Shown one piece after another: positions 3,747 to 10,596 of a stretch of DNA of 64,000 nucleotides (positions are counted from its first letter, which is position 1; each line of letters begins with the position of its first letter). The position numbers and the translations under genes are program-made. This DNA is from Magnetospirillum gryphiswaldense MSR-1 v2. GTDB lineage: Bacteria > Pseudomonadota > Alphaproteobacteria > Rhodospirillales > Magnetospirillaceae. Location of the stretch: the NCBI RefSeq assembly GCF_000513295.1, contig NC_023065.1, positions 1 to 64,000 on the forward strand, read 5' to 3'. Below the pieces are notes generated by a model. The model was not told the DNA's origin, ran no database searches, and worked only from the letters and a program-made list of their open reading frames with translations.

Positions 3747-6185
<2,439 letters not shown>

Positions 6186-8073: not shown

Positions 8074-8099
8074 GTCATTCTCCATGGCGCGTCATGTCG

Positions 8100-8335
8100 T
8101 TTATTGCGACAGACACACCGATCAGGCACAACATCATTGTATGCCGTCAATGACAGAGTATACGGTAAATATGCTTAGTACTATTAAATATAATAGTGCC
8201 AATTATTTGTATGCTTTGCCACAATTGTCGGAAACTGGACAATTGTTGTGTGGGTTATTTTTTTGGAAATGTGTGTTTTTGATATGTTGATTTTGGTGAT
8301 TTATTTTTCAGTGATGATCGGCGGATATTTGTGAT
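8100..8335. other. AT-rich, palindrome-bearing intergenic patch
   Basis: The 375 bases between the 93-residue gene and fusA2 contain about 230 bases of strikingly AT-rich DNA inside a GC-rich chromosome. It holds a 7-bp inverted repeat with 4-base loop (8180-8197) and a 9-bp perfect inverted repeat ACAATTGTC/GACAATTGT with 8-base spacer (8221-8246), whose arms each contain the self-palindromic ACAATTGT. Downstream is T-rich. I see no convincing gene. It could be a regulatory region for the divergent-looking small gene, a short insertion of foreign DNA, or a DNA-melting site; no consensus DnaA boxes were found. Confidence 0.6.
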
Positions 8336-8396: not shown

Positions 8397-8424
8397 TGGG
8401 CCCCGTTCTCGCGAACGGGGCCCA
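8397..8424 (-). terminator. Hairpin downstream of fusA2
   Basis: GC-rich stem of 11 bp (8398-8408 with 8413-8423, extended by one A-T pair) with loop TCGC, located 25 bases after the EF-G paralog stop. The minus-strand trailer is only moderately T-rich, so it may be a weak terminator or an mRNA-stabilising end. Confidence 0.6.
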
Positions 8425-8448: not shown

Positions 8449-10596
8449 TTAGGAGGCGGTCGCCCCCGTATTCTTGGCGATGATCTCGTCGGCTACCTGC
8501 CTCGGCACCGGTTCATAGCGCGCGAACTCCATGGTGTAGGAGGCGCGGCCCGAGGTCATGCCACGGAGATGGCCGATATAGCCGAACATCTCGGACAGCG
8601 GCACGATCGCTTCGACGGCGATGTTGTGGCCGCGCTCCGACTGGCCCTGCACCATGCCGCGACGGCGGTTGATGTCGCCGATGATATCGCCCAGATAATC
8701 TTCGGACGAAACCACTTCGACCTTCATCATCGGTTCGAGCAGCACCGGCGCACAACGCTTGATGCCTTCACGGAAGCAGGCCTTGGCGGCGATTTCGAAG
8801 GTCAGCGCGTTGGAATCGACGTCGTGATACTTTCCGTCGACCAGGGTCGCGCTGAAATCGATGGTCGGATAACCGGCCAGCACGCCGTCTTCCTTCTGGA
8901 GCTCCAGGCCCTTACCCACCGACGGCACGTATTCCTTGGGGACCGAACCGCCAACCGTTTCGTCGATGAACTTGAAGCCCTCACCGCGTTCTTGCGGCGC
9001 GAAGGTGATCTTCACTTCGGCGAACTGGCCGGAACCGCCCGTCTGCTTCTTGTGGGTGTAGGTGTGGGTGAAGCTCTGGGTGATGGTTTCGCGATAGGCG
9101 ACCTGCGGCTTGCCCATGTTGCCTTCGACGCCGAACTCGGTCCGCATGCGGTCGAGGGTGACTTCGAGATGCAATTCGCCCATGCCGCGCAGGATGGTCT
9201 GACCGGTTTCACGGTCGGTTTCCAGGCGCAGCGAGGGATCGGCGCGGACCATCTTGCCGAGCGCCATGCCGAACTTCTCTTGGTCGTTCTTGGTCTTCGC
9301 CTCGACCGAGACGCTGATCACCGGCTCGGGGAAACGCATGCGTTCCAGGATGACCTGGTTCGAGGTATCGCACAGCGTGTCGCCGGTTTCGGTTTCCGAC
9401 AACGACACCAGCGCGACGATGTCACCGGCCCGGGCCTCTTCGATCGGATGGGGTTCCTTGGCGAACATTTCGACCATGCGGCCGATCTTCTCGCGCTTGC
9501 CGCGGGTCGAGTTCATGACCGAGGCGCCTTTGGTCAGCACGCCGGAATAGACGCGGATGAAGGTCAGCGCGCCATAGGCGTCGTTGATGACCTTGAAGGC
9601 CAGGGCGGAGAAGGGCTCGTCGTCCGAGCAGGTGCGTTCGCCATTGGGTTCACCGTCGACATCGACGGTCTTGATCGATTCGACGTCGGTCGGGGCCGGC
9701 AGCAGATCGACGACGGCGTCGAGAACCTGCTGAACGCCCTTGTTCTTGTAGGAGGAACCGCAGAGGACGGGGGTGAAGGCGCTGCTGAGGGTGCCCTTGC
9801 GGATGCAGGCACGCAGTTGATCCGGGGTCGGGTCTTCGCCGGTCTCCAGATAGGCCTCCATCAAGGCTTCGTCCTGCTCCAGCGCGGTGTCGACCAGTTC
9901 CTGGCGGAGCGCCGGAATGGCGGCCAGGCTGTCGAGGTCTTCCTTCACCGTGATGTTGAGTTTCTGGGCGAGGTCGTCGGTGACCGGCCAGACTTCCCAC
10001 TGGGCGTCCTTGTCGTCGGTGAACCAAACCAGGGCCTTCATCTCGACCAGGTCGACCATGCCGCGGAAATTGTCTTCCGACCCCAGCGGCACTTGGTAAA
10101 CCAGCGGGCGGGCGCCCAGGCGGTTACGAATCATATCGACGCAACGACGGAAATTGGCGCCGGAGCGGTCCATCTTGTTGACGTAGCAAAGGCGCGGCAC
10201 GTTGTAATTGTCGGCCAGCCGCCAATTGGTTTCGGATTGCGGCTCGACGCCGGCGACGCCGTCGAACACGACCACCGCACCGTCGAGGACGCGAAGCGAA
10301 CGGTTCACTTCGATGGTGAAGTCGACGTGGCCGGGGGTGTCGATGACGTTGATCTTCTTGTCACGCCAAAATGCAGAGACGGCGGCGCTCTGGATGGTGA
10401 TGCCGCGCTTTTGTTCCTGCTCCAGATAGTCGGTCGTGGTCGACGACTTCAGGTCCTTGGTGTCGTGAATGTCGACGATCGTGTGCTTGCGACCGGTGTA
10501 ATAGAGAATGCGCTCGGTCGTCGTGGTCTTGCCCGCGTCGACGTGAGCGATGATCCCGATGTTGCGGATGTCTTCAAGTGGGGTGGAACGGGCCAT
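8449..10596 (-). CDS. Elongation factor G paralog (divergent EF-G)
   Basis: GTPase of the EF-G family, 715 residues, with all five G-domain motifs ([32 protein letters not shown]) and the five-domain layout including [14 protein letters not shown] of domain IV and the C-terminal [11 protein letters not shown]. It is clearly different from the str-operon EF-G in this window (694 residues at 40515): for example [20 protein letters not shown]-type switch I instead of [20 protein letters not shown]-type. From memory these features recall EF-Gs of the spirochete/planctomycete/delta-proteobacterial (spdEFG) group; that assignment is inference. It is monocistronic, has high-GC codon use, and lies just outside the tRNA-Thr island. 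It may be a translocation-specialised or stress-specific factor. Confidence 0.93.

Follow-up and report, generated by a model that had tools for sequence, protein, structure and literature searches.

A putative NifA-type control region without a sigma54 element upstream of a lineage-restricted orphan gene in Magnetospirillum gryphiswaldense

Why should a patch of some 236 bp, very low in GC and beset with inverted repeats, lie in the GC-rich chromosome of Magnetospirillum gryphiswaldense MSR-1 v2? The window analysed here is the whole stretch of 64,000 nucleotides at the start of contig NC_023065.1. The GC content is 0.347 across the patch and 0.31 across 8150-8320, compared with a genome mean of 0.63, and a value of 0.347 or below was found in only 5 of 8,451 sampled overlapping 236-bp windows of the genome. 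The low GC content recorded in the initial annotation is thus borne out, both of the inverted repeats that it described are present (Table 1), and the end of the gyrB-like ORF, at 6185, lies ~1.9 kb off, close to the 2 kb that had been given. This ORF was named by reading, as were dnaA, dnaN and recF with it at the start of the window; Pfam bears out the identity of a ferric-reductase-like gene and of fusA. The patch is flanked by a gene of 93 codons and by fusA (8449-10596, minus strand), and therefore constitutes the DNA directly before the start of the 93-aa gene. A long GC-rich palindrome (GGGCCCCGTTCTCGCGAACGGGGCCC, 8397-8424) directly after fusA is terminator-like and has no T run.

From sequence comparison, we read the patch as control DNA conserved upstream of an orphan gene of restricted distribution, with sites of the NifA type but without sigma54. 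The probability that it comprises a promoter and a regulator-binding region, in which NifA or a regulator with the same code would act on a sigma70-like promoter, is in our estimate roughly three in four. An unexplained AT-rich patch is in this way turned into a testable hypothesis, that of a conserved small protein which, in Magnetospirillum and its relatives, is connected to the nitrogen-fixation code.

Table 1. Features of the patch and of the adjoining gene, in window coordinates
Feature	Position	Strand	Remarks
Orphan gene, 93 aa	7795..8073	-	patch lies upstream; four helices predicted
Likely ribosome-binding site GGAGA	8078..8082	-	in 11/12 orthologues; GGAGT in L019
Second predicted leader hairpin	8086..8119	-	from single-sequence folds
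AT-rich patch	8100..8335	.	~236 bp; stretch at a like place in 12/12 orthologues
First predicted leader hairpin, imperfect dyad GGCATACAATGATGTTGTGCC	8124..8145	-	conserved block
-10-like element	8155..8162	-	TACTCT at -87 or TATACT at -89
7-bp inverted repeat ACTATTAAATATAATAGT	8180..8197	.	13/18 bases kept in G005, 5' arm changed
Proximal dyad TGTGGCAAAGCATACA	8208..8223	-	TGT-N10-ACA
26-bp inverted repeat ACAATTGTCGGAAACTGGACAATTGT	8221..8246	.	its ACAATTGT words are dyad borders (ACA-AT-TGT)
Distal dyad TGTCCAGTTTCCGACA	8226..8241	-	9/10 to TGTCG-N6-CGACA

The patch and the gene that it accompanies

Counting its own genome, the 93-aa gene has orthologues in 4 of 13 genomes of the genus, 12 of 55 of the family and 12 of 317 of the order, and none beyond these 12 were found among 385 genomes sampled from the class. 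Named genomes with an orthologue are M. sulfuroxidans J10, a Phaeospirillum MAG and a MAG labelled Stygiobacter. The record of the last (titled Stygiobacter sp.; L024, VBWB01000038.1) seems to be mislabelled, and a contig of the same-genus genome G005, which carries the 93-aa gene and fusA, matches it in length. The 12 orthologue sequences share 18 invariant columns. In G005, the nearest relative found, the protein is 84% identical, and the 93 codons show 8, 8 and 13 changes at positions 1, 2 and 3, respectively. The protein has no match in Pfam (up to E 5) or NCBIfam (up to E 1). Its AlphaFold2 model consists of four helices with a mean pLDDT of 83.7, for which Foldseek returned a designed protein as the best target (E 0.18). 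VIA-align returned the same designed bundle (Z 11.2, 88 aligned, rmsd 2.6), a score that, according to the tool, may reflect merely a shared arrangement. A profile search of solved structures yielded nine matches, mostly coiled-coil fusions, with a best E of 0.056. A literature search via guessed locus tags of the gene returned no paper, and the gene was not met in sections of the expression study PMC9549626 or in a term search of its text. At 72,000-73,200, where that study puts a TPP riboswitch, none reached the cut-off here, so that the numbering or the strain may not be the same.

The AT-rich stretch travels with this gene. In all 12 orthologues, the poorest 100 bp upstream have 22-32% GC and start 186-246 bp before the ATG, as compared with their own 1.5-kb upstream flanks, which have 55-65% GC. 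The gene neighbourhoods, assigned by reading, vary among the genomes inspected and include a periplasmic-receptor-like gene and a response regulator in J10, and thioesterase-like and CoA-ligase-like genes in G001. Homology of G005 to the patch stops near 8280. A restriction-modification-like gene of 1156 aa (by reading; L010:3743-7213, minus strand) lies there between the patch and fusA, and the dyads described below are kept despite this intervening gene. The patch is thus not missing from close relatives, an outcome that the initial annotation had taken to speak against a function, wherever the gene is present; the gene itself is missing from 9 of the 13 genus genomes.

The low GC of the patch, the patchy occurrence of the gene (12 of 55 family genomes) and the restriction-modification-like gene beside the patch in G005 would all be expected of foreign or decayed DNA, such as a mobile-element scar, or of a target of nucleoid silencing. 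We regard this reading as very improbable. The like placement of the AT-rich stretch in all 12 orthologues speaks against a mobile-element scar, which we rejected, the dyads are conserved at base level, and the GC content of the gene is normal. Nor is the silencer-protein binding site that had been proposed called for, as the position of the stretch tracks the 93-aa gene, which has a GC content of 62%.

An origin-like melting element had also been suggested, and the patch is indeed AT-rich and located ~7 kb after dnaA. A scan with the E. coli DnaA box consensus, TTATCCACA, allowing at most one mismatch, found no box, either in the window up to 12 kb or in the 16 kb that precede it. The GC skew turns from negative to positive elsewhere, between 3.08 and 3.32 Mb (G000:C1; a coarse sample of 20-kb pieces about every 220 kb), which suggests that replication starts far from dnaA. 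Moreover, the AT-rich stretch follows the orphan gene even where dnaA and gyrB are not seen as neighbours. With neither DnaA boxes nor the skew minimum found at the patch, we rejected this reading, which is scarcely credible.

Dyads, spacing and leader

The initial annotation had singled out two ACAATTGT words as an operator pair. A search for ACAATTGT-N10-ACAATTGT returned a single place in the 4,365,796 bp of the genome, and none for the reversed control. The two words, however, are 18 bp apart, which corresponds to ~1.7 helical turns, and thus do not lie near the same face of the DNA as had been supposed. The proposal was right in kind, and the candidate operators are two TGT-N10-ACA dyads instead of the ACAATTGT words. 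These dyads sit between and beside the words and share their code with the NifA-type sites found elsewhere in this genome. Read on the gene strand, the order is ACA-AT-[TGTCCAGTTTCCGACA]-AT-[TGTGGCAAAGCATACA], so that each ACAATTGT is a border and not a site. One form of the NifA site is TGT-N4-T-N5-ACA, which the distal dyad fits.

The dyads are conserved. In the region from -225 to -126 of the 12 orthologues, we counted 21 TGT-N10-ACA dyads, distributed over 11 loci. Shuffling this region 1000 times with dinucleotides preserved gave a mean of 0.42 dyads, and no shuffle reached 21, a comparison made with shuffled sequence, for a motif, window and spacing picked after inspection and for orthologues that are not independent of each other. 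In 11 of 12 loci, the best site agrees with TGTCG-N6-CGACA at 8-10 of 10 positions. The exception among the TGT-N10-ACA dyads is J10 (L014, G006), which has none upstream of its 93-aa gene and carries another palindrome, ATTACATTCATGTAAT, roughly where the distal dyad would be and 74 bp ahead of its -10. Compared with G005, 33 of 34 bases are kept in the dyads and 29 of 30 in the -10 region, as against 65 of 76 in the leader and 35 of 53 further upstream. The 7-bp inverted repeat, of which 13 of 18 bases are kept, is poorly conserved and probably without function.

A TAnnnT element is found at -85 to -89 in the orthologues, with L015 placed at -75 by alignment, so that all 12 are covered. Since a single TAnnnT between -110 and -60 occurs in only 4 of 12 orthologues, the choice of the -10 rests on alignment; for L015, the alternative choice breaks its dyad spacing. 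Measured from the chosen TAnnnT, the spacing of the dyads is near-fixed. A dyad centre lies at 76-79 bp in 9 of 12 loci (the member from L015 being an 8-of-10 site without TGT) and at 73 bp in this genome and G005, while L014 has no dyad. A second dyad follows at 55-58 bp in 10 of 12 loci, and is TGT-N10-ACA in four, a near-type in L021 and TGA-N10-TCA in five, where simple shuffles predict 0.35 of the latter. Six loci have a dyad at 109-118 bp. The distances step by ~20 and 40 bp, and half-site positions 4 and 5 are C and G in 26 of 42 cases each. The TGA-N10-TCA dyads (for example the palindrome TGAAGGAAATCCTTCA) belong to L015, L016, L017, L019 and L023, are located 56-58 bp before the -10-like element, and occupy the place of the proximal TGT-N10-ACA dyad of this genome.

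Support for a two-hairpin leader is moderate. Single-sequence folds gave two separate hairpins in 10 of 12 leaders, and the fold of the leader in this genome has a z of -3.05. The leader energy was reached by at most 2 of 200 shuffles in 4 of the 12 leaders, and by 7 to 93 in the other eight. For the first hairpin, the leader alignment contains six consensus pairs, three of which show two-sided changes in at least one sequence; the second was not recovered from the alignment in this covariation check. A known RNA family was rejected, the search for one having returned two matches, both far below their gathering scores.

These elements can be arranged into a mechanism. The two adjacent 16-bp dyads (TGT-N10-ACA, at best TGTCG-N6-CGACA) would be candidate sites for NifA or a regulator with the same code, and would lie ~67 and 85 bp before the putative transcription start. 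A regulator bound there would act on the sigma70-like promoter to which the -10-like element would belong, presumably by activation rather than repression, and the AT-rich DNA may provide an upstream region that is easily bent or melted.

A site code shared with nif promoters

According to the accessible text of a NifA regulon reconstruction, the NifA code is TGT-N10-ACA, and NifA activates only together with RpoN (PMC4999443). The dyad is shared with the nif promoters of this genome. TGTC-N8-GACA occurs 28 times in the genome, compared with 10 times for the reversed control, and 8 of the 28 fall within 348-398 kb, the nif region, in which nifH occupies 381616-382440. Within this region (75 kb), 7 of 32 sigma54-like sites have TGT-N10-ACA within 250 bp upstream, as opposed to 2 of 157 in 360 kb of control DNA, and the seven sites with dyads have scores of 13.7-15.2.

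The tandem pattern is found at 13 distinct places in six of the 12 gene-bearing genomes, and its reversed version at none. Four of these places belong to the 93-aa gene, three to nifH and three to nifB, and one sits between NifA-like and nifE-like genes; the other two include one that is apparently inside a coding region. Gene names were assigned by reading, except for nifH, by match, and the NifA-like gene, by 41% identity. The tandem places of this genome are those of nifH and the 93-aa gene, with no others. The pattern has no match anywhere in five g7 genomes and G001, and none at the 93-aa gene in G158 and J10. As the proximal site is TGA-N10-TCA in five of the six genomes formed by the g7 group and G001, the array may be a target for more than one protein. 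Among four relatives, the single perfect dyad TGTCG-N6-CGACA barely exceeds its reversed control in two (G018, 6 versus 4; G153, 7 versus 3), the values for the other two being 6 versus 0 (G142) and 9 versus 0 (G155).

What the orphan gene lacks is the sigma54 element. A -24/-12 element, defined as GG-N10-GC of the TGGCACG-N4-TTGCW type, was found upstream of none of the 12 orthologues, the best score being 10.5 of 15.2, and five of the 12 have no GG-N10-GC at all within 140 bp. The three nifB places, on the other hand, have it 44-45 bp after the tandem dyads, and the three nifH places have it at 70 bp on the nifH side and at 44-49 bp on the opposite side. The NifA-like gene of G157 has no -24/-12 element on its side within 300 bp. 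The nifE-like gene facing it does have one, and the dyads there may therefore serve the nifE-like gene. The 93-aa gene thus resembles the NifA-sigma54 promoters of nifH and nifB in having the same dyad, in tandem with few bp between, but differs from them in having a sigma70-like -10 at a near-fixed distance in place of -24/-12. It follows that the array, unlike the promoter, is of the NifA kind, and that NifA cannot act here in the known way. With nif-type paired sites and no matching promoter, the gene probably has an unusual link to nitrogen fixation. A promoter of this layout would be passed over by at least the reconstruction cited above, in which a NifA site was counted as true only with a downstream sigma54 promoter (PMC4999443).

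That NifA itself binds the dyads, either through a degenerate sigma54 promoter or by acting at the sigma70 promoter, for example as a repressor, is a serious possibility at somewhat less than even odds. It is favoured by the enrichment of same-code dyads at sigma54-like sites of the nif region, by the fact that seven of the nine other tandem places are nif places, and by the presence of nifH in the four gene-bearing genus genomes (just below the cut-off in G001, and in two pieces in G005). The split match in G005 (G005:C51:14510-15224) runs over two frames and reflects an assembly error or a broken gene. The absence of -24/-12 from every orthologue argues against NifA, as does J10, which retains the tandem dyads at nifH and has none at the 93-aa gene. 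Furthermore, nifH is above the cut-off in nine genus genomes, seven of which are without the 93-aa gene, and nifH alone fails to predict its presence.

Candidate regulators and the comparison with cowN

The layout at the orphan gene is also that of a class-I promoter of the CRP type, in which an activator bound upstream acts with sigma70. Common to both are dyads ~67-91 bp upstream together with a sigma70-like -10, and a distance of about two turns between dyads in most orthologues (18 bp here); in contrast to such promoters, no CRP-family binder has been identified for the dyads of the 93-aa gene. A member of the CRP/FNR family with a CooA-like code, which may have nifA promoters among its targets, is a possible but rather doubtful binder. 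The CooA site is given as tGTCg-N6-tGACa in the accessible part of PMC8047169, and TGTCG-N6-CGACA fits it. The C and G preferences at half-site positions 4 and 5, the steps of ~20 and 40 bp, and the fixed distance of a 16-bp dyad from a sigma70-like -10 (chosen by alignment) are all in line with this proposal.

The nifA promoters bear on it as well. None of the six examined has a sigma54 element (the count excludes two of the eight NifA matches, with 41-42% identity), and three of the six carry a single dyad at -104, which favours a CooA-like binder. The dyad, TGTC-N8-GACA, is found in three genus genomes (L029:13408, L137 and L140). In J10, the corresponding nifA stretch appears degenerate by eye, and dyads are missing there as at the 93-aa gene, while the nifH tandem is intact. 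Against a CooA-like protein stands G142, with dyads at the 93-aa gene and none at nifA. In addition, the Crp HTH model gave 13 hits in this genome, two of which, both under the cut-off, are by eye not CRP, and none of the 13, read by eye, was a clear CooA. Comparison with solved structures covered two of the hits. For the first, CooA (1ft9) matched weakly and ranked far behind other structures, and for the second, CooA was not among the best 60 of 137 structure matches.

A further proposal, which we consider unlikely, is that a second transcription factor reads the NifA code at sigma70 promoters, those of the 93-aa gene and, in part of the genus, of nifA itself, with the orphan protein serving as a nitrogen-fixation accessory in the manner of CowN. 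One DNA word would then be used by two regulators. The cowN promoter has overlapping CooA and NifA sites, as reported in the accessible part of PMC8047169, and the two genes are alike in that each encodes a small protein of a diazotroph with four predicted helices and has an upstream dyad fitting both codes. The 93-aa protein and CowN agree in size and helix count, as far as that part describes CowN (PMC8047169). Unlike CowN, however, the 93-aa protein has no match to the CowN family, Pfam PF20543 (up to E 5). Each of the 12 gene-bearing genomes has one CowN match elsewhere, compared with none of 14 controls, and we therefore rejected the 93-aa protein as CowN itself. Within 350 bp upstream of cowN, none of 10 loci (of 12; L087 and L096 were left out) contains TGT-N10-ACA, and L088 has an 8-of-10 near match. 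In this genome, cowN is preceded by a neighbouring gene of like orientation that was named PAS-LytTR-like by reading (L091:1921-2694, minus strand) and that we take to be possibly a CO sensor of the RcoM type.
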